NCBI GenBank assembly: GCA_016201275.1
Contig: JACQDB010000058.1
Coordinates: 1 to 63,847 of the forward strand
From: Acidobacteriota bacterium
Lineage (GTDB): Bacteria > Acidobacteriota > Blastocatellia > UBA7656
Length of the DNA stretch: 63,847 nucleotides
Reading direction: 5' to 3'
Positions 580-30,048 of this stretch are shown piece after piece. How positions within the stretch are numbered: the first letter of the stretch is position 1; every line of letters begins with the position of its first letter. The notes under the pieces were generated by a model. The model was not told the DNA's origin. It saw only the letters and a list, made by a program, of their open reading frames with translations, and searched no databases. The position numbers and the translations under genes were made by a program.

Positions 580-606
580 AAATTCTACGAAATTAAGGTG
601 AAGAAC

Positions 607-2550
607 ATGAGAAACGATTTATCAAAAAAGCTGAGTTCAGAAATTTCGATTTCAAAAAAATATTCACTCAAGAGAATGCTCGCGCTGCTGTGCATTCTGG
701 CAACCTTCAATATGCAATGGCTGACTGCGGGAACGGCGCTGGGAGCGCAACAGGCAGAACGCTTGCGAACCATCATGGGGCAACGCCAGCAGGTCAACAT
801 CAACGAGCGCGTCAAAGAACTAGCGAAAATCAGTCCGTGGTACAAAGTGGGCGGCGGGTCTGTGGTTTCTGTGGTCACCACTTTTCCGGGAGTGCTGGAA
901 ATCTTTGGCTTGGAGTTACGTGATGGAGTTTTCTACATCACCCATAGGTCGTTAAGTGGCACCAACCTGAGCCGCCGCGAAGACCTCGGCGGCAATACCG
1001 GCTATTCGATTAAAGCCGTCTCTCTAGGCGATGGCCGTATGGCGGTCTTCGCTGTCTGGTTAGATCAAACGCTGCGTTGTAGATACTACGATGGCGGCAG
1101 TTGGGGCGAATGGCAAAACCTCGGCGGTTCGTTTATAGGAACGCCTGAAGTCGCGGTAACCGATTTTCAATTTATTATTCGCGACCGCATAGACGTTATG
1201 AATACTCCCAAGGTGTTTCAAAAAATTGCTGACCAACCGGCTGCGCCGCCAAGTCAGAGTCCGACCGCGCAACCTGTAAATCCCAACCACACCAAGATGC
1301 GCGTAATCAAAAGGGATTCGGTTCAAGCGCAGGTTGGCCAACCGGCGACGATATCAACGCAGACGCAGGCGAACCCTCGCCAAGTCAAAAAAACCGAAGT
1401 GGCGATATACGATAAAGTAAAAATTGGGCCGCTGTTGAACCCGCCAACGCGAACCCGAATCGCTCATGTCTTTGTCAAAAACATAGATGGAACTCTTTGG
1501 CACCGAGAGGGAACGGGTTTGCCCGGATCATGGCACGCCTGGCAGTCTTTGGGCGGAAAATCTTTCAATGGCATTGTGGCGACTGCCTCTACCGATAAAA
1601 AGGTTGATGTGGTGATTTGGAATAACAACGAGGTTCCCAGCTATGGCGCGTATTACTGGGACACCCGTGGCTATAAATTCAGCGGCTGGACGGGGCTGAA
1701 TATATCGGCGGGCGCTGCGCCGGTATTGTTTTCGGCGCAGGAAGATCAGTTGGACCTTTTTTGTTTGGGCAATGACCTCAAGCTTTATCATCGCCGACGA
1801 AGCGGCAGCAGTTGGTCGAATTGGGTGGTCGCGGATAATCGCGCTTATCCGCTGGCGGCCATGTCTATACGCTCCGGCATCGTAGAGTTGTTTGTTCGCA
1901 AGGCCGACTTCGAGCTTTATGAAATCGAGTGGGATGGCAAAAAATTCGTCGCCTCGAAAATCGGCGGCAGTTGCGCCTATGTCGCAGGCGTACAGGCGCT
2001 GGATAAACCGCGCTTTGATCTGTTTCTGACGGATATGAATAATGCGCCTTTTCAGAAGTGGTGGGGCGCAAGCGCGACCTTCCTGCCGGAGACCGGAGTG
2101 CAGCCTGCTACGTTTCCAACGGCTGGTGAAGGCCAACGTCCCAATGCGTTTGGCGAATGCGGCGCAGGGCTGCAAATCACCCAAGGCTTATGTCAGCGCA
2201 TACCGCCGCCGCCGCCGCCACCGCCGCCAACTCAGCAAACGCCGCCGCCCGCGCCGACACCAACGGTGCAGAAGCCTTCAATCAGCGTCGTAGTTGCCAA
2301 CGGTACATTCGCGGTAAGCGGTTCGGGATTTACGCCCAACAGCACCATCACGATTCGTGTCGCCGACGATGCCTTGGCCAATGTTTATTATCTCTATCGG
2401 TCAATGGCGGACGGGCGTCTGCAAGCGGTGGTGCCAAATATTTGCGTCAACCCCGGCAATATCTATTTTTCGGCAACCGACGGCAGGCATGATGCCAGCG
2501 ACCGCACCGGCTCGTTATGGAGCAACACCGTGCGTATGAGTTGCAACTGA
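607..2550 (+). CDS. Secreted protein with PLL-like propeller repeats and proline-rich linker
   Basis: A 647-residue protein of unknown function. A hydrophobic segment at about residues 22-45 looks like a signal peptide or N-terminal anchor. Two regions (about 75-190 and 285-480) contain recurring W-x-x-W-x-x-LGG-type and L-x-Y-R/H motifs typical of PLL-like (fucolectin-like) beta-propeller repeats. A run of nine prolines near residue 533 links to a C-terminal Ig/TIG-like domain with the motif SGSGFTPNSTITIRV. The start at 607 is preferred over an in-frame GTG at 598 because aaggtg at 595-600 then serves as ribosome binding site. Carbohydrate or surface binding is an inference from the fold. 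Together with the next two genes it forms a run of secreted proteins on the same strand. Confidence 0.75.
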   Translation: MRNDLSKKLSSEISISKKYSLKRMLALLCILATFNMQWLTAGTALGAQQAERLRTIMGQRQQVNINERVKELAKISPWYKVGGGSVVSVVTTFPGVLEIFGLELRDGVFYITHRSLSGTNLSRREDLGGNTGYSIKAVSLGDGRMAVFAVWLDQTLRCRYYDGGSWGEWQNLGGSFIGTPEVAVTDFQFIIRDRIDVMNTPKVFQKIADQPAAPPSQSPTAQPVNPNHTKMRVIKRDSVQAQVGQPATISTQTQANPRQVKKTEVAIYDKVKIGPLLNPPTRTRIAHVFVKNIDGTLWHREGTGLPGSWHAWQSLGGKSFNGIVATASTDKKVDVVIWNNNEVPSYGAYYWDTRGYKFSGWTGLNISAGAAPVLFSAQEDQLDLFCLGNDLKLYHRRRSGSSWSNWVVADNRAYPLAAMSIRSGIVELFVRKADFELYEIEWDGKKFVASKIGGSCAYVAGVQALDKPRFDLFLTDMNNAPFQKWWGASATFLPETGVQPATFPTAGEGQRPNAFGECGAGLQITQGLCQRIPPPPPPPPPTQQTPPPAPTPTVQKPSISVVVANGTFAVSGSGFTPNSTITIRVADDALANVYYLYRSMADGRLQAVVPNICVNPGNIYFSATDGRHDASDRTGSLWSNTVRMSCN

Positions 2551-2711
2551 AATAGCCGTTCCAGCTTTCACTGGTTGTCGCGGGCGATGTGTTCATCGTC
2601 CGCGACATTTTTTATGTCGGCGGGTTGATAATTTTTATGACGGGGCAAGGCCGGTCTAAAGGCTCTAATAAACTGCGCCAAGCAATTGCCGAAACTCTTT
2701 TTTCCGACGCG

Positions 2712-2781
2712 CCGACATGATTTGCGCGCCCCTCTCACTTGTGATTGAAAGCGCGCATGGCTTTCCGGCAGATGCCGAAGG
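2712..2781 (+). ncRNA. Candidate structured leader, copy 2
   Basis: This is the second copy of the element at 502-579, placed 160 nt before the ATG at 2941. Hairpins gaaagc/gctttc and cggc/gccg occupy the same positions as in copy 1 but differ in base composition. This is what a conserved RNA fold would show, although two copies cannot prove covariation. The remainder of the 390-nt spacer 2551-2940 shows no gene. Confidence 0.35.
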
Positions 2782-2940
2782 TTAAAGGCCGATGAAGCGT
2801 TATGCAAAGGACCAGCGAAGCATGAAATTTGCACCGCTCATCACGACGCGAAACCGCAAGCCTTTGATCGCGCGTCGCGCCAGTATGGATTACGACTAAA
2901 ACGATTTTTGATTGACGATGATGTAAGGAGAACAACAATT

Positions 2941-4134
2941 ATGAAAGCGAATATTATCCACACAATTTCAAAACGAATATCAATGGGACTGCTGGTTTTG
3001 GCAACTCTGCTGGCCTTGACGGCAAACCATCAGGCGGTCGCGCAATCCGGCACTGCCAATGCTCCCATACCGATCAAGGGGAATGAATTGAAAGGCGATC
3101 TGTTCGGCAGCGATGAAGAATACTTCTTTTCTTTTAGCGCCGGAGCGGGGGAAATCGGCGTCACTCTGGAGGTGAAAGCGACCAGTGTTAATGCCGGTCT
3201 TACCCTTGAACTCGCCGATAGCAATGGCAAAAGCCTTGCGCCCGTGATGTTGGTGCAAGGCTTGAATAGAGGCAGCGACAGCGCTCAACGAAAAGCCCAA
3301 ATCGCCAGTCCGCAAATGATTGTAATGCGCCTCAAAGATATTCGTTATAACCTGCCTAGCTGTCGCGGCAACTTTGTCATCCGTGTGAGCGGGGCGATCA
3401 AAGCCGAGTCCAGCCCGGCTTCCGGGGCGCTGGGTCAACCCGCAACAGGTAGCGCACCCGCAACAGGCAGCGCACCAAATACCGAGGCAACAGGTAGCGC
3501 GCCAGAGGCAACAGGCAGCGCACCAAATGCCGAGGCGAAAGAGTACCCGTACCTGCCGCAATCCACCAACGCGATGCAGCCTACGGTGTTGGAGCGGTCA
3601 TCCTTCAGCGGCGAGTTGACGGGAACGGGCAAGGAGTTTTTTTACTCGTTTGCTGTAAACCCCGGCGACTTGACGCTCACCGTAGGTGTGATTGCCGAGA
3701 CCAATCAGGCGCAAGCGATTATTGATCTGCTCGATGCCCGCGCCAATTCCTTGTTGGCCAATTTACAGGTACGCGGAACCGATCAAGGCGCGAGCGAAAG
3801 CCGAACCGTAAGATTTAACCAACGCCAGATGGTGACGTTGCGAATCACCGACACCGTGGGCAGCAAAGGGCTCTTTCTGGTGGCGCTTGATGGAGCGTTA
3901 GAGGCTGGACAGAGCAACGGCGCGCCTATGCCTGCACCACCGCAGGATGGTTCTGCCAACGGTGGTCGCGTGGATGAGCGCAGCACGCAACCTGCGCCGC
4001 CTGCGCGTGCGGACCGCTCGCAGTTTCAAATTACCTTCGGCACCAAAAGGCACGGCAACATCACCTTGAACTTTGACATCAAGGATGGGTTGTTGAAAAA
4101 GCTCTTAAACAATCGCCAGGATTTGCGCCGCTAA
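2941..4134 (+). CDS. Secreted protein with two PPC-like domains
   Basis: A 397-residue protein with an N-terminal signal peptide (cleavage probably after AVAQ near residue 34). Two internally related beta-rich domains follow, at about residues 38-150 and 205-320. Each contains a G-x-L-x-G-x-x-x-E-(Y/F)-F-(F/Y)-S-F motif and resembles bacterial pre-peptidase C-terminal (PPC) domains. They are joined by a linker built from a repeated ATGSAP/NAEA unit. The C-terminus is proline-rich and ends in a basic tail. No catalytic domain is attached, so a carbohydrate-binding or surface role is only inferred. The start is ATG 2941 with AAGGAG at 2925-2930; the longer TTG start at 2908 is unlikely because it would bury that ribosome binding site. 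Confidence 0.75.
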   Translation: MKANIIHTISKRISMGLLVLATLLALTANHQAVAQSGTANAPIPIKGNELKGDLFGSDEEYFFSFSAGAGEIGVTLEVKATSVNAGLTLELADSNGKSLAPVMLVQGLNRGSDSAQRKAQIASPQMIVMRLKDIRYNLPSCRGNFVIRVSGAIKAESSPASGALGQPATGSAPATGSAPNTEATGSAPEATGSAPNAEAKEYPYLPQSTNAMQPTVLERSSFSGELTGTGKEFFYSFAVNPGDLTLTVGVIAETNQAQAIIDLLDARANSLLANLQVRGTDQGASESRTVRFNQRQMVTLRITDTVGSKGLFLVALDGALEAGQSNGAPMPAPPQDGSANGGRVDERSTQPAPPARADRSQFQITFGTKRHGNITLNFDIKDGLLKKLLNNRQDLRR

Positions 4135-4169
4135 AGGCCAGCCGAGGTTTTACGCGGCGGCTTGCCACC

Positions 4170-4214
4170 TTCGGCGATTGCCCTTTCCGATAGTCAGAGA
4201 GGGCAATCGCCGAA
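4170..4214 (+). terminator. Hairpin, possible terminator
   Basis: A perfect 15-bp stem (ttcggcgattgccct 4170-4184 with its complement 4200-4214) and a 15-nt loop lie 35 nt after the stop of the PPC-domain gene. No U-tract follows, so it may be an attenuator or mRNA-stabilising hairpin upstream of the gene at 4248. Confidence 0.45.
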
Positions 4215-4247
4215 AGACTACGACTCGAAACGACAGGAGAAAACACC

Positions 4248-4808
4248 ATGAATCGCAAGATCAAAAAAATTTTATACGGCTTGAGTTTGTTGCTCACCCT
4301 CAGCGTTGGCGCGCTCTCGATTTCAGCGCAGACCGCAGGAGCCATCAACGGCAGGATCAAATGGAAAAAGAGCGATGGCAAACCGGAGGCGGTGCGCCCT
4401 TGCGAAGCCTTTGGCATTGCGGCGTACACGGAAGCGGGCAGCGCCGTGGGCAACGTCATTCGTTTAGGCTTTACCGAGACCGCAGACAACTACGAGTGCG
4501 CCTATTCCATCGGCAATCTGCCGGAAGGGCAGTTACTTCGTGTGGTGGTCAATGCTTTAAAAGACTATCGGTGGACTGGCAATCAACCGACAGGGCTGTT
4601 CACTTACAGGCGGACGTTCAAACCCACGGGCTGGACTGGTGAGGTGACATTGATGCGTGTGAAACCGGATCTGCCCTCGCGAGCCAGAGGCGATTTTGAC
4701 ATGGTGGTGGTCGCCAACAAACCGAACGAGAAAATTTTGCTGAATCCGAAAATTCGTTTTCCCACGGTGCAACGCTCGGCGGCGGCGAGACCTCGCAGAA
4801 GTTTTTGA
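4248..4808 (+). CDS. Small secreted protein of unknown function
   Basis: A 186-residue protein with a clear signal peptide (basic MNRKIKK, hydrophobic core to about residue 25, cleavage after ISA-Q). The mature part resembles a short carboxypeptidase-regulatory or Ig-like beta fold: a G-A-I-N-G-R-I start and a later sequence of alternating beta-type residues. It is not assigned to a named family. The ATG has a good ribosome binding site (caggag 9 nt upstream). It is the third consecutive secreted-protein gene on this strand and may be co-transcribed with the preceding one across a 113-nt spacer that holds a hairpin. Confidence 0.6.
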   Translation: MNRKIKKILYGLSLLLTLSVGALSISAQTAGAINGRIKWKKSDGKPEAVRPCEAFGIAAYTEAGSAVGNVIRLGFTETADNYECAYSIGNLPEGQLLRVVVNALKDYRWTGNQPTGLFTYRRTFKPTGWTGEVTLMRVKPDLPSRARGDFDMVVVANKPNEKILLNPKIRFPTVQRSAAARPRRSF

Positions 4809-4900
4809 GGCTGGCGAAAGGCGCTCAGACTATCGCGCTTGGAGTTTGGGCAGCGGCTGAAAAGAGCAACCTTTTCTGCCACTGGAGCGCTTTGCACCAT

Positions 4901-4937
4901 CCTATACGGGCGACCACCGCAGGGTCGCCCGTATAGG
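4901..4937. repeat. GGGCGACC palindrome, copy 1
   Basis: A perfect 15-bp stem (cctatacgggcgacc with its complement 4923-4937) and a 7-nt loop. The core gggcgaccctgcggtggtcg recurs at 30731-30752 and as two facing halves at 53928-54009, so this is a dispersed intergenic palindrome. It lies 90 nt after the stop at 4808 and may also act as a terminator. Confidence 0.75.
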
Positions 4938-5019
4938 CATTTGAAAATCACTCAAGTTTTGCAGGCTATTTCAGCCACAATCCTAAGCTCGACTTTGTAT
5001 ATATTTCAGAGGCGAACCA

Positions 5020-5325
5020 GCCTTGCTGATCCCCGACGGAAGTCGGTGGATGCTTAAAGTTCAGCCTACGCAACGCCGCGAAAGATTAACGAATCCCCCC
5101 AACGGTAGTTGGGGGATGCTTAAAGTGCAACCTACGCAACGCTGCCAACGATAAACGAATCCCCCCGATGGAAATCGGGGGATGGTTAAAGTCCAACCTT
5201 GCCCGATGCTCTGTAGGCTGGACTTTAAGCATCCCCCAACTACCGTTGGGGGGATTGCAAAAAAACTTTGCTTGCTTGGTGTAGGTAGGACTTTAAGCAT
5301 CCCCCAACTGCCGTTGGGGGGATTC
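5020..5325. repeat. 66-bp repeats, three direct and two inverted
   Basis: Three direct units end in ggatgcttaaagt-type sequence near 5060, 5126 and 5192, spaced 66 bp apart. Two further copies face the other way (5210-5262 and 5282-5325). Each unit contains a small palindrome, for example ccccccaacggtagttgggg. No gene is apparent. Confidence 0.8.
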
Positions 5326-10365: not shown

Positions 10366-12531
10366 ATGAAACAAGTCGTGCAAAATTTTCGCACCGGGGA
10401 ACTGGCCGTCGAAGAGTTGCCGCCCCCGGCTTTGAAAGTGGGCGGATTGCTGGTCGAGACCGCTTACTCGTTAATCAGCGCCGGAACCGAACGCTCGATA
10501 GTCGAAACCGCGCAAAGCTCACTGGTCGGCAAAGCGCGTTCGCGTCCTGACTTGGTGCGCCAAGTCCTGGATACCTTCAAACGCGAAGGGCTGCGCGCCA
10601 CTTACGAAAAAGTTCAAGCGCGCCTCAATCAAATCAAAGCGCTGGGCTATAGCGCCTCCGGCACGGTCATCGCTGTCGGCGAAGGCGTCAGCGGCTTTCA
10701 AGTTGGCGACCGTGTGGCCTGCGCCGGAGCCGGTTACGCTTCGCACGCCGAGTTTCTTTTCGTGCCGCAAAATCTGTGCTGTAAATTGCCTGCCGATGCC
10801 CATCTCGAAGCCGCCTGTTACACCACTGTCGGCGCGATTGCTCTGCAAGGCATACGTCAGGCGGATGTGCGATTGGGCGAAACCGTAGCCGTCATCGGGC
10901 TGGGTCTGGTCGGCCAATTGACGGTGCAGATGTTGAAAGCCTCTGGCTGTCGCGTCTTGGGTTTTGATATTGATGCGGCGGCCTGTGAACTGGCGAAACA
11001 AGCGGGCGCGGATGGGATTGCCAATAACCCGGAAGCGGCGCGTCAATATTGCGCGGCGATGACCGAAGGGCGCGGCGCGGATTCCATATTGATTACCGCC
11101 AGCACGACATCGGATGAGCCTGTAGAACTGGCCAGCGAATTGGCGCGTGACCGTGCGCGCATCACTGCGGTCGGCATGATCGGCATGAATATTCCGCGCA
11201 ATGCTTATTACCTGAAAGAACTGGAAATTCGTTTGTCGCGGTCGTATGGGCCAGGGCGTTACGACCCGGTGTATGAAGAGCAGGGCGTTGATTATCCGCT
11301 TGGTTATGTGCGCTGGACCGAGAAGCGCAATATGGAAGCCTTTCTGCAATTGATCGCCGCTGGCAAAGTCAACACCGATTTGTTGACCACGCATCGCTTC
11401 CAGGTGAAGCAGGCGACCGAGGCTTATCGAATGATAACCGGCAAAGCCGAACGCTATTGCGGCATCGTGTTGGCGTACCCGCACGACGAACAAGCGGTTG
11501 TCAACTTTGTCAAAACCACGCATCAAAAACCACCGGCGAAAAATGCTTTGGGCGTCAGTTTTATTGGCGCGGGAAATTTTGCGCGCGGCGTCTTGTTGCC
11601 GCTTGTCAAACGCACGGCGCAACTCAACCTTGAAGGCATAGCCACTGCCACCGGCATCAGCGCCAAAAATACCGCCGAAATGTTTGGCTTTCGCTATTCA
11701 ACGACCGACACCGAACAGATATTCGGCAATGAAAAAAGTGATTGCGTATTCATCGCTACGCGCCACGACAATCACGCCGCGTTGAGCGCCGAAGCCTTGC
11801 GTCGCGGCAAAAATGTCTTCGTTGAAAAACCGCTGGCGACAACTCTGGAAGGCTTGCGCGAAGTCATCGGCGCAGCACGCGAGTCAAATCATACCTTGAT
11901 GGTCGGCTATAACCGTCGCTTTGCGCCGCTGGCCGTAGAGTTGAAAAAAGCGTTTGCCAATCGCGTCGGAGCGTTGACCATTTTGTATCGCGTCAATGCC
12001 GGACAATTAGCTGCCGAACATTGGTCGCACGACCAACGGGAAGGCGGCGGGCGCATCATCGGCGAGGTCTGTCACTTCATAGACTTCGCGCAATTTTTAA
12101 CCGACGCGCTGCCTGTGCAAGTGTCGGCGGTGGCCGTGCCTGTATCGCGCAAGGCCGGTTTCGTTGACGACAGCGTAAGCGCTTCGATGAGCTTTGCCGA
12201 TGGTTCTATAGCGACGATTGTTTATACAGCGAGCGGCAATAACGCTGTCGCCAAAGAGCGCGTAGAGATTTTCGGTGATCGTGTGGTTGCGGTGCTGGAT
12301 GATTTCAAGAGCGCCGAAATTCATAATGGCAAAAAGACTGTGAAACTGGGCGGCGGCGCGCAGCAGAAAGGCCACGCCGAAGAGATCGCGGCGTTCTTGG
12401 CGGCGGCCAGCGGCAAACAGGATGCGCCCATCGCTTTGGCGTCTTTGGCGGCTACCAGTCTGGCTTGTCTGGCGATTATCGAAAGCGCCAAAACCGGTAC
12501 GGCTTGCGCGATTGATTTGAATTTGCTTTGA
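10366..12531 (+). CDS. Bi-domain oxidoreductase (MDR dehydrogenase fused to Gfo/Idh/MocA)
   Basis: A 721-residue fusion. Residues 1-370 form a medium-chain dehydrogenase fold with the conserved SAGTE-R segment, the G-D-R-V-A-C-A-G segment and a nucleotide-binding V-I-G-L-G-L-V-G. Residues 385-721 form a Gfo/Idh/MocA oxidoreductase with a Rossmann motif F-I-G-A-G-N-F-A, the E-K-P-L-A-T-T motif and a G-Y-N-R-R-F-A-P segment. Such fusions are common in polysaccharide and sugar-acid gene clusters, and a glycosylphosphotransferase gene lies 700 bp downstream. The substrate is unknown. The ATG at 10366 directly follows the heptamer repeat block. Confidence 0.88.
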   Translation: MKQVVQNFRTGELAVEELPPPALKVGGLLVETAYSLISAGTERSIVETAQSSLVGKARSRPDLVRQVLDTFKREGLRATYEKVQARLNQIKALGYSASGTVIAVGEGVSGFQVGDRVACAGAGYASHAEFLFVPQNLCCKLPADAHLEAACYTTVGAIALQGIRQADVRLGETVAVIGLGLVGQLTVQMLKASGCRVLGFDIDAAACELAKQAGADGIANNPEAARQYCAAMTEGRGADSILITASTTSDEPVELASELARDRARITAVGMIGMNIPRNAYYLKELEIRLSRSYGPGRYDPVYEEQGVDYPLGYVRWTEKRNMEAFLQLIAAGKVNTDLLTTHRFQVKQATEAYRMITGKAERYCGIVLAYPHDEQAVVNFVKTTHQKPPAKNALGVSFIGAGNFARGVLLPLVKRTAQLNLEGIATATGISAKNTAEMFGFRYSTTDTEQIFGNEKSDCVFIATRHDNHAALSAEALRRGKNVFVEKPLATTLEGLREVIGAARESNHTLMVGYNRRFAPLAVELKKAFANRVGALTILYRVNAGQLAAEHWSHDQREGGGRIIGEVCHFIDFAQFLTDALPVQVSAVAVPVSRKAGFVDDSVSASMSFADGSIATIVYTASGNNAVAKERVEIFGDRVVAVLDDFKSAEIHNGKKTVKLGGGAQQKGHAEEIAAFLAAASGKQDAPIALASLAATSLACLAIIESAKTGTACAIDLNLL

Positions 12532-12565
12532 TAAAACCTCGGACGATGCAAAGAACAGGACTTTT

Positions 12566-13036
12566 ATGCAGATGAAAAAACTATTATTTTTGTTAGCCAT
12601 TTTCAGTTTGTCGGGTGCTGCGGCGCTGGCGCAAGGGTCGGCAGGCGTAGTCAAAGTTTCCGCTGCGACGGTCAAAGTGAAGAAGGGCGCAGCGGCCACA
12701 GGAGTTGTGACGCTCAACATTGACGGCGGTTATCACATCAATTCCAACCGCCCTTCGGAATCGTTTTTAATTGCCACGGCCTTAAAGATTCAGCCGCAAG
12801 CGGGCTTCACTGTTGGCGGCGTGGTCTATCCGAGAGCGAAGTTGCAGAAGTTTTCGTTTTCGTCAAAGCCGCTGTCCGTGTATGCCGGCAACGTGGCTTT
12901 GAAGTTCACTGTGCGCGCTGCGGCCTCGGCAAGTAATCAAACTTTGAAAGGGAAGTTGACCATACAGGCGTGCAATGATCAACAATGCCTGCGTCCGCAA
13001 ACCGTGGATGTCAATATCCCCATTGAAGTGAATTGA
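12566..13036 (+). CDS. Secreted DsbD N-terminal-domain-like protein
   Basis: A 156-residue protein with a signal peptide (hydrophobic residues 5-22, cleavage after ALAQ). The mature part is a single Ig-like domain ending in the pattern A-C-N-D-Q-Q-C-L-R-P-Q, which matches the cysteine pair of the periplasmic N-terminal domain of DsbD. The membrane and thioredoxin domains of full DsbD are absent, so it may accept or donate electrons with another thiol carrier. Starts at 12566 and 12572 are both possible. A strong terminator hairpin follows. Confidence 0.75.
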   Translation: MQMKKLLFLLAIFSLSGAAALAQGSAGVVKVSAATVKVKKGAAATGVVTLNIDGGYHINSNRPSESFLIATALKIQPQAGFTVGGVVYPRAKLQKFSFSSKPLSVYAGNVALKFTVRAAASASNQTLKGKLTIQACNDQQCLRPQTVDVNIPIEVN

Positions 13037-27975: not shown

Positions 27976-29391
27976 ATGACTGCAAAACAGATTGTCAGCG
28001 CCGATGGCGAACGCTTGTTTCAACGTCTTGAACAAGGCGAACGCTTAACCATGGAAGAATGGCAGGTCATCGAAGACACTGCCGCGACCGTTGAACTGGG
28101 CCGACTCGCCGATGCGCTGCGCCACAAATTGCACCCCGAAAACGAAGTCACCTATGTGATTGACCGCAACATTAATTACTCCAATGTCTGTGTATCGGTG
28201 TGCAACTTCTGCGCCTTTTATCGCAAGCCCGGTTCCGCCGAAGGCTATGTTCACGACTATGCAACCATCTACGAAAAAGTCGAAGAGATGCTCGAACTCG
28301 GCGGCAGCGGCGTGTTGATGCAAGGCGGTCTGCATCCCGACTTGCCGCTCGCTTGGTACACCGGCTTGCTGCGCGAGTTGAAGACGCGCTATCAAATTCA
28401 CCTGCATTGTTTTTCGCCGCCGGAGATTGACAATCTGGCGAAGGTCACGGGGTTGGGCGTCGAAGGCGTGTTGAAAGAGTTGAAAGCGGCAGGCTTGGAT
28501 TCGATACCGGGCGGCGGCGGCGAAATACTGGTGGACGAAATTCGTCGCAAACGGCGCACCCATTGCAACAGCGAAGAGTGGTTGAACGTCATGGACGCGG
28601 CGCATTCATTAGGCCTTGCGACCACCGCGACGATGATGTTTGGTATGGGTGAAACCCGCGACCAGCGTTTATTGCACTTGGAAAAACTGCGTGCTTTGCA
28701 GGAGCGCAACCCGGGGTTTGTCTCCTTCATTCCGTGGACGCTGCAACCGGATAACACGGCTATTGGCAAACTCTTTCCCGACAGAGTGCCGGGTGACGAG
28801 TATCTGCGTTGGCTGGCAATCGGGCGGCTGTATTTGAGCAGCATTGCCAACGAGCAGGTGTCTTGGTTGACGCAAGGTTTGGATATCGGGCGACAGGGGT
28901 TGCATTACGGCGCGAACGACATCGGCAGCACGATGATTGAAGAGAACGTCATCTCGAAAGCCGGAGCGCATCATCAGGCGACCGAGCGAATGTTATGCGA
29001 AGCCATCCTTGCCGAAGGCTTCACGCCGCGCAAACGCAAAGCCGATTACACCAAACTCGCGCCCCTCGTTGTTATGGCGATGCCCACAAAATACATCAAC
29101 GAGATTCAGGCGCGTGCCTGCGTGAATCGCTTTTTACTGGCGCAAGCGGGCAGCCTGTTCTGTGCCGGAGAACCAGAGTTGGAGGTCAACCAACAACATT
29201 GGCGCGTGCCTGTGTTGATGGTCACACCCGGTTTTGTGGTTGGTCAAGTTGGCGAAGCGCTGGTTGACTGGCAGACCCGTGAAATACTTTCTCACACCCG
29301 TATTGCAGAGATGCAGGAGCGCGCCGCATACTTGAGGACGCAAAACCATGCGGCGATTAAGACCGCCTTTTTACGCACAAGAAAAGGATAG
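27976..29391 (+). CDS. mqnC: MqnC-type radical SAM enzyme with a C-terminal fusion
   Basis: A 471-residue protein. Residues 1-364 match cyclic dehypoxanthinyl futalosine synthase: a radical SAM CX3CX2C cluster (C72, C76, C79 in V-C-V-S-V-C-N-F-C), [15 protein letters not shown] and M-M-F-G-M-G-E-T. It catalyses a step of the futalosine menaquinone pathway. The normal end would be about residue 365. Residues 365-471 are extra and belong to a second conserved unit ([10 protein letters not shown] ... [13 protein letters not shown]). The last 141 nt before the junction recur 866 bp downstream. Whether the fused protein is active is unknown. Confidence 0.85.
28928..29068 (+). repeat. 141-bp direct repeat, left copy (mqnC 3' end)
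   Basis: This segment and 29794-29934 are identical over 141 bp, beginning gcacgatgattgaagag and ending gcgcccctcg. They bound 725 bp of unrelated sequence holding the extra C-terminal domain and a C39-like gene. The pair is consistent with an insertion or recombination event in the 3' end of mqnC. Confidence 0.92.
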
Positions 29392-29791
29392 TTCGTGTTT
29401 GCCTGCCTGTTTGCGAATGGTGCTTGCAGCAAAAGGCGTGGCGGTATCCGAGAAACGCTTACGCGACTTGTGCGAGTGGAAGGCCAACGCCGGGTGTCTG
29501 TCTGCCAATGTGGTTGCCGCAGCGCGGGCACTGGGCTTTGTGCATTCGCAGGAAGATTATGGATTGCGCCTGTATGATTTGCGCGACGCTTTGCGCGTAG
29601 GGATTTTTCCCATCGTTGGTATTGATCTATTGGCATATGGACGAATGGGACAACACGCCCAAGTGGTGGCTTCGGTAACCACACGCGGAGTCAGCGTGCA
29701 AGACCCTTTGCTCGGACAATTCGTCAGCCGTCTGATGGTTTTTGAAGAAGCTTGGAGGTACAGCGATTTTCTGACTATCCTCATTGGATAG
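29348..29791 (+). CDS. C39-like (papain-like) peptidase domain protein
   Basis: A 147-residue stand-alone protein. The N-terminus carries the peptidase C39 pattern Q11-E-K-D-S-S-C17-L-P-A-C-L-R-M with Gln11 as oxyanion-hole candidate and Cys17 as nucleophile. His103 (G-Q-H-A-Q-V-V) and Asp119 (V-Q-D-P-L) complete the catalytic set. Most C39 domains process bacteriocin leaders within transporters, but none is attached here. It overlaps the mqnC fusion ORF by 44 nt, so the two are probably translationally coupled. It lies inside the repeat-bounded cassette. Confidence 0.78.
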
Positions 29792-29793
29792 CC

Positions 29794-29977
29794 GCACGAT
29801 GATTGAAGAGAACGTCATCTCGAAAGCCGGAGCGCATCATCAGGCGACCGAGCGAATGTTATGCGAAGCCATCCTTGCCGAAGGCTTCACGCCGCGCAAA
29901 CGCAAAGCCGATTACACCAAACTCGCGCCCCTCGCGCAAACGCAAAGCCGATTACACCAAACTCGCGCCCCTCGCTT
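29794..29977 (+). pseudogene. Duplicated mqnC 3' end
   Basis: This stretch is the right copy of the 141-bp repeat (29794-29934). A further 40-bp tandem duplication (units 29895-29934 and 29935-29974) follows, then ctTGA. Without the 40-bp duplication, the frame would end A-P-L-A-stop, which is the natural mqnC terminus. The segment has no start region or radical SAM core and cannot be a functional gene alone. Confidence 0.85.
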
Positions 29978-30048
29978 GAAGCGTTGGTGAGGTGAATTTT
30001 GTGTTAGGCCGATGGCCTTATCCCACCCTACAACAGAAAGAGGTTGAT

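Follow-up and report, generated by a model that had tools for sequence, protein, structure and literature searches.

The window, i.e. the entire 63,847-nt stretch of Acidobacteriota DNA analyzed here, carries a gene for the menaquinone-pathway enzyme MqnC that is interrupted just before its last codon by a 725-bp insert, which separates two copies of the 3' end of that gene (Table 1). The mqnC product, which is 83% identical to the MqnC of the genome G002, matches TIGR03699 with an E-value of 2.7e-128, its score of 427.6 bits lying slightly below the model cut-off of 428.1. Repeat comparison within the window gives 141 bp as the maximal exact repeat, with a spacing of 866 bp between the two copies, and the duplicated segment is the stretch that precedes the last codon of mqnC, give or take one base of that codon. 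MqnC is read in frame into the insert, acquiring a fusion tail of 107 residues, and a second ORF coding for a C39-like peptidase overlaps the fusion ORF by 44 nt. An earlier note on this DNA had described the 141-bp direct repeats, the two overlapping ORFs between them and a ~100-residue domain in frame with MqnC, and was correct in this to the base. It had also held that the left junction removes the end of MqnC and that the right copy restores the terminus of the gene. Neither of these claims is supported: the left copy falls short of the natural protein, which ends in ...TKLAPLA*, by its last residue only, and the right copy is a remnant. As just this residue is dropped, the MqnC enzyme is probably retained as a fusion that carries the second domain, a putative inhibitor, as its tail.

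Table 1. Features of the mqnC locus (positions in the window)
Feature	Position	Strand	Family match or remark
mqnC, cyclic dehypoxanthinyl futalosine synthase, all but last residue	27976..29068	+	TIGR03699, PF04055, PF19288
Fusion ORF, MqnC read in frame into the insert, 471 aa	27976..29391	+
Left copy of 141-bp mqnC 3' end	28928..29068	+	exact maximal repeat
Inserted 725-bp cassette	29069..29793	+	single copy in genome
PepSY/cystatin-like partner ('dom', by predicted fold), 105 aa from ATG 29074	29074..29391	+	fusion residues 367-471, in frame with mqnC
Stand-alone C39-like cysteine peptidase, 147 aa, Q11, C17, H103, D119	29348..29791	+	PF03412, E 4.5e-8
Right copy of 141-bp mqnC 3' end	29794..29934	+	identical to left copy; begins 2 bp past C39 stop
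Second copy of last 40 bp, then natural mqnC terminus (A, TGA 29977-29979)	29935..29979	+	40-bp tandem identity, 29895-29934 = 29935-29974

Directly after the right copy there is an extra tandem copy of 40 bp, beyond which the natural mqnC end, GCT-TGA, is reached. In both of these rearrangements, of 141 bp and of 40 bp, mqnC is left after the same base, ...CGCCCCTCG|, and the strand structure predicted at this shared breakpoint does not exceed that of shuffled sequences (z 0.49). The insert has only 5 bp ahead of its first ATG and 2 bp past the C39 stop codon, and hence no promoter of its own. The pair is thus probably expressed from the transcript of mqnC, most of the inhibitor being produced as the tail of MqnC. 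The cassette is found once in the source genome, a draft of 162 contigs, and only at mqnC. The mqnC genes of all nine relatives examined, which represent other genera with 50-83% identity rather than sister strains (a 37%-identity second match in G007 is left out, and G005 gave no mqnC match), stop at their own stop codon and have neither tail nor cassette; the domain attached to MqnC in the absence of repeats, which the earlier note had named as one observation that would speak against its reading, is thus absent from these loci. The first 302 bases of the window lie within a dispersed, partly tandem repeat with 55 matches in the genome, some of them at the ends of other contigs.

The C39 peptidase of the window scores above the PF03412 cut-off (33.4 bits versus 22). 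Its Gln, Cys, His and Asp, which we take to be the active-site residues, are invariant across all 21 aligned sequences, and a profile of its relatives, with the window's own sequence left out, matches the peptidase domains of ComA and PCAT. The partner domain, in contrast to the peptidase, has no family model in Pfam, NCBIfam, PADLOC or PHROGs, in keeping with the earlier suggestion that the two-gene module might be undescribed, and no PepSY match was recovered from Pfam at E-values up to 1 for either the window's domain or that of the locus L061. Its AlphaFold2 model is nevertheless a confident one (pLDDT 91.4, pTM 0.80). A Foldseek search of the PDB with this model returned nothing at an E-value of 0.001 or better. 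Near the top of the matches listed by a structural aligner are CD1622, which is presumably PepSY-like (Z 8.1 over 62 residues at 3.4 A), YpmB (Z 7.6 over 60 residues at 2.5 A) and YpeB (Z 7.4 over 96 residues at 5.6 A), along with two designed cystatin-type or beta-sheet proteins (Z 7.6-7.9) and, further down the list, a papain-bound cystatin (Z 5.4); Z-scores of 7-8 fall in a range that the aligner itself calls common and are hence not decisive. The predicted fold is no more than suggestive of a PepSY/cystatin-like domain. A passage of PMC6393860, citing Yeats 2004, describes PepSY-type proteins as likely inhibitors of proteases. The window's partner and most others carry no recognized DNA-binding domain; a MazE/AbrB-like N-terminal segment is present on the partner in two loci of a single KSB1 genome (G107), namely L140, where PF04014 is matched at E 1.5e-4, under the cut-off, and L132, where it was seen by eye.

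The partner is also found in other architectural contexts. In L049, L052, L056, L060 and L071 a ~400-490-residue protein with no Pfam family above the cut-off carries it at its C-terminal end or close to it, and a C39 gene follows in four of these five. G004 has three partner domains with no whole C39 gene alongside (L045 11417-11719, L046 6481-6780 and L047 6024-6329).

Of 98 genomes searched, including the window's own, 12 contain the partner at E 0.01, and 13 contain the peptidase at E 1e-6. A collection of named genomes yielded 27 loci, including several contigs already seen and one ABC transporter (L114), in metagenome-assembled genomes (MAGs) of Acidobacteria/Blastocatellia, in cyanobacteria, in KSB1 and in Chloroflexi. 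When 60 loci including the window were scanned with profiles of both proteins, every one of the 51 stand-alone C39 matches (at least 118 of 146 profile positions in a frame of less than 300 aa) had the partner encoded no more than 200 bp away and in the same orientation; these loci were chosen by homology to either protein and are not a random draw, though many were found through the C39 domain alone, and the partner threshold of E 0.01 was set for 500 sequences, with a few matches, such as that of L140, being weak. C39 domains in long frames had the partner beside them in only one of 12 cases. The partner lies upstream of the peptidase in 47 loci and downstream in four, one of which (L063) also has an upstream copy, so that the gene order is truly reversed in three (L131, L148 and L156). 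The association of the domain with C39 thus extends to every stand-alone C39 match examined, and the two-gene module surmised by the earlier note is present at many other sites. The toxin-antitoxin-like company of the module is in line with one of the functions that the same note had proposed.

Several leads in these neighborhoods did not hold up. A HicB- or PHD-like upstream gene considered as the partner in L131 gave way to the partner domain located downstream, and a PhD/PIN pair beside the C39 gene of L133 lies on the other strand. A broken C39 gene with a whole partner is commoner than the converse, yet we give little weight to a strict asymmetry in which the antitoxin is kept and the toxin lost, because C39 is the longer gene and many of the genomes are draft MAGs. 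Wide presence in cyanobacteria was likewise discarded: one of 386 sampled genomes passed E 1e-25, and this was the query's own center, suggesting that the module is rare there. Searches of plasmids recovered no match to the window region as DNA or to the two proteins of L061 or L140, and with the C39 protein of L131 retrieved two ABC-transporter peptidases only; a single scan of viral contigs gave 69 pattern matches and no relative. Another small two-gene unit, which combines a DUF5678 protein with an LDTGS-motif protein (aspartyl-protease-like by eye and without Pfam support), occurs twice in G003 (L043 6390-7884 and L044 6914-7378) and in decayed form in G002, with an additional fragment of the M14 peptidase gene discussed below coming after it.

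The duplication seen at mqnC recurs round other C39 modules. Flanking repeats scoring at least 60 were found at five of 35 modules (one of which has a short right flank) as against none of 300 random 725-bp cores drawn from G000 (the source genome), G002 and G004 (Fisher 9.5e-6), with the remaining 30 modules having no flanking repeat that reaches this score. In all five, the similarity between the left and right flanks exceeds that of 99.8% of the mismatched pairs of flanks, which numbered 1190. The enrichment persists when only the modules of G000, G002 and G004 are considered (3/7, 7.3e-6) and when the two modules of the cyanobacterium Vasconcelosia are set aside (3/33, 9e-4). The duplicated stretch is the 3' end of the preceding gene at the window's mqnC, at a gene for an M14 peptidase in G002 and at the Vasconcelosia hsdM; that of a fourth module, from G004, lies within no long frame. 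The two copies are no longer identical at the M14 gene (97%) and at hsdM (89%), a divergence that speaks against an assembly error at those two sites. The C39 pair with the fifth repeat is a second copy of the module in Vasconcelosia, where it belongs to an array (L096, NZ_JADEXG010000043.1, 596-5052) that also includes a PIN module, HEPN-MNT and ParDE, with copies of one fragment separating the members.

Modules of other types display the same layout. A scan for repeat pairs of 40-400 bp lying 300-2500 bp apart, with no choice of genes, covered the window and 20 stretches of three genomes (463,847 bases) and yielded eight pairs: two represent the mqnC site, one, at 93.8%, encloses a BrnT-type module, and the other five have a lower identity of 73-84%. 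The sites at 88% identity or better are hence two, the window's mqnC and the BrnT-type module in the same genome. The latter (L205, contig C162 of G000, 12070-12697) lies behind a ThiS-ThiF-rhodanese gene and is bordered on either side by a 48-bp copy of that gene's 3' end. Similarly, a HigB-type module of G004 lies between ~143-bp copies (117 of 144 positions identical) of the 3' end of a dihydrouridine synthase gene. The PIN loci of G000, G002 and G004, of which the best 30 of 60 matches were tested, have flanking repeats in six cases as against five of 300 random cores (1.2e-4), with the threshold fixed after the scores had been seen, the control consisting of random cores rather than matched gene pairs, and the five random positives coming from two sites. 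Where the partner reaches the cut-off of no Pfam model, as with BrnT, HigB and two of the PIN toxins, the module is named by its toxin.

PIN loci with flanking repeats in the window's genome include L173 (C134, 104 bp), L190 (C59, 91 bp) and L172 (C19, 44 bp); in L172 and L173 the duplicated stretch resembles, by eye, the 5' rather than the 3' end of the neighboring gene. A PIN locus of G004 (L194, C12) is enclosed by a repeat of at least 324 bp, the two copies of which are nearly identical.

The ends of several inserts share a geometry. Across 11 measured sites, the right copy begins 1-12 bp past the stop codon of the module's last gene in six: 2 bp at mqnC, 5 bp at the M14 gene, 12 bp at hsdM, 1 bp at the BrnT-type module, 8 bp at a PIN module beside an M19 gene and 4 bp at another beside a YdjC gene. 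At the same six sites the copy ends at or within ~10 bp of the neighboring gene's stop, the natural stop coming at the window only after the extra 40 bp. Four further sites have the right copy 42-215 bp past the stop, and L172 gave no repeat in the measured geometry. The duplication measures 141 bp at the window and 44-143 bp at the nine other sites that give a repeat. As the presumed antitoxin gene comes last in the BrnT-type and HigB-type modules, the end of the insert is set by the module and not by the toxin.

As to how the insert may have arrived, the scanned ORFs on both of its strands include no member of a recombinase, transposase or integrase family, and six junctions compared by eye share no common motif. 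With differing target genes as well, we set aside a transposon or a site-specific integrase. The likeness to integration into the 3' end of a housekeeping gene, drawn at the outset, therefore holds in one part: duplication of the gene end is real and recurs, whereas site-specific integration fits less well, and an insertion with a long target duplication, bounded by direct target copies of variable length, fits better, given the absence of a recombinase match, the differing targets and the varying duplication length. In outline, incoming DNA ending just past the protease stop would have been joined into mqnC, and the last 141 bp before the final codon copied to the far side of the insert. That mqnC is left twice at a single base suggests template switching by a stalled or broken replication end. 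On this route, which is likely but unproven, the end would have departed from mqnC at ...CCCCTCG, acquired the module by copying it from another place, re-entered mqnC 141 bp upstream and finally, again at that base, slipped back by 40 bp. The final layout would be no different if a circle with the gene end on it had integrated, or if DNA had been taken up and joined by one-sided homologous recombination. mqnC would survive because nearly the whole gene sits to the left of the insert, and the bias toward gene ends needs no site-specific enzyme, as insertions that keep the gene whole are those that survive.

By their co-occurrence and layout, the two genes form a module, and such modules often sit between gene-end duplications. 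Type II toxin-antitoxin (TA) systems typically consist of two small co-oriented, overlapping or adjacent genes, and this is what is seen in 51 of 51 cases. We consider it rather probable that the cassette is a TA-like module, in which an inhibitor gene overlaps the gene for a papain-fold C39 protease, inserted at mqnC with a long target duplication. From the pairing, the predicted fold, the MazE-like fusions and the company of the module, we infer that the protease would be the toxin and the partner its inhibitor: the free protease would harm the cell, the partner would bind and silence it, and the modules would persist because loss of the inhibitor is costly. Neither protein of the window matches a known TA family in Pfam, NCBIfam, PADLOC or PHROG. 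Two loci (L100 and L102) have kept the protease with a damaged partner, which counts against a strict antitoxin, though both come from draft MAGs. TA modules abound on plasmids, and that no plasmid copy was recovered with the queries tried also counts against the TA reading.

Since the exact identity of the two mqnC copies rests on a draft assembly, it must be asked whether mqnC and a separate cassette were brought together in short-read assembly by a shared 141-mer, which would thereby have been duplicated, 141 being a familiar largest k-mer of a common assembler. The exact identity over exactly 141 bp and the draft state of the genome, with its 162 contigs, would fit such a misjoin. Yet, the cassette occurs once, at mqnC only; diverged copies (82-97% identity) in the same layout are present at other genes and in other genomes; a BrnT-type and a PIN module show this layout in the window's own genome; and, by reasoning, a graph at k=141 should break at a 141-bp repeat rather than traverse it twice. 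We therefore judge an artefact to be highly improbable. Sharing of k-mers between contig ends was tried as an assembler's mark and dropped: both ends of the contig fall within dispersed repeats, and neither is matched exactly over its full length.

The recurrence of the layout at several unrelated genes, for the C39 pair and for other two-gene TA modules alike, speaks equally against the idea of a one-off template-switching accident, in which a passive gene pair without mobility was copied into mqnC; this could account for the single base from which both rearrangements depart, as would be expected of a stalled fork, and for the want of a transposase or integrase family match among the ORFs of the insert, but in the face of that recurrence it is an unlikely explanation. 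A different function for the same genes is conceivable, given that C39 relatives with solved structures are mostly peptidases of ComA/PCAT-type transporters: the C39 enzyme might trim a double-glycine leader, with the partner as its substrate or chaperone, as in bacteriocin export. However, the C39 domain stands alone in this enzyme, its partner is conserved and confidently folded in prediction with no variable core peptide in the alignments, and one such pair sits among TA modules, so that we see little likelihood in a peptide-processing unit.

A toxin-antitoxin-like module with a long target duplication hence remains our preferred reading of the locus. Beyond it, we tentatively advance a broader proposal, in which our confidence falls somewhat short of even: that the C39/PepSY-like pairs constitute an undescribed protease-inhibitor class of TA systems, and that TA-type modules as a whole, in Blastocatellia as well as in at least one cyanobacterium, spread by one mechanism that duplicates ~44-141 bp of the neighboring gene's end, with the far end of the insert directly past the module's last stop. 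In the literature surveyed, mainly titles and abstracts with few subscription papers, we found no description of a C39 or PepSY toxin-antitoxin module and, among the papers listed, none of TA insertion with partial gene duplication. The sections of Makarova 2009 (PMC2701414) that were available stress TA mobility and TA islands and name no gene-end scar. The scar, a copy of the neighboring gene's end, is common to several module types that are unrelated to one another, in one bacterial family and in one cyanobacterium, so that their route of entry can be sought in any genome and put to the test in the laboratory. How transposase-free TA modules enter chromosomes is, to our knowledge, an old open question. 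If the proposal is true, the pair would add proteolysis checked by a cystatin-like inhibitor to the TA modes of action.

The peptidase shares with Peptidase C39 (PF03412) of ComA and PCAT both the sequence match and the Q-C-H-D residues, but differs in having no fused ABC transporter and in being adjoined by the partner domain in all 51 stand-alone matches. The partner may, by its predicted fold, resemble PepSY-containing proteins such as YpmB and YpeB, but shows no PepSY sequence match and is encoded as a separate gene overlapping that of its protease. With type II TA modules of the PIN/VapC, BrnT, HigB, ParDE and HEPN-MNT types the pair has in common the two small overlapping or adjacent genes, a patchy distribution, decayed copies and, in some relatives, several copies per genome, as well as the insertion layout and the common array in Vasconcelosia; it is set apart by a putative cysteine protease toxin and a putative PepSY/cystatin-like antitoxin that usually has no recognized DNA-binding domain. 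Finally, some restriction-modification (RM) systems insert with long, variable target duplications of ~100 bp, according to the passage of PMC3874152 that cites Nobusato 2000 and Furuta 2010. By analogy, the window's case looks like this RM mode of insertion used by toxin-antitoxin-type modules: both would involve selfish host-attacking genes and show a long variable target duplication, here of 44-143 bp, but here the cargo consists of TA-type modules and a protease pair, the duplications fall on gene ends, and the insert ends 1-12 bp past the module's last stop at six of 11 sites.
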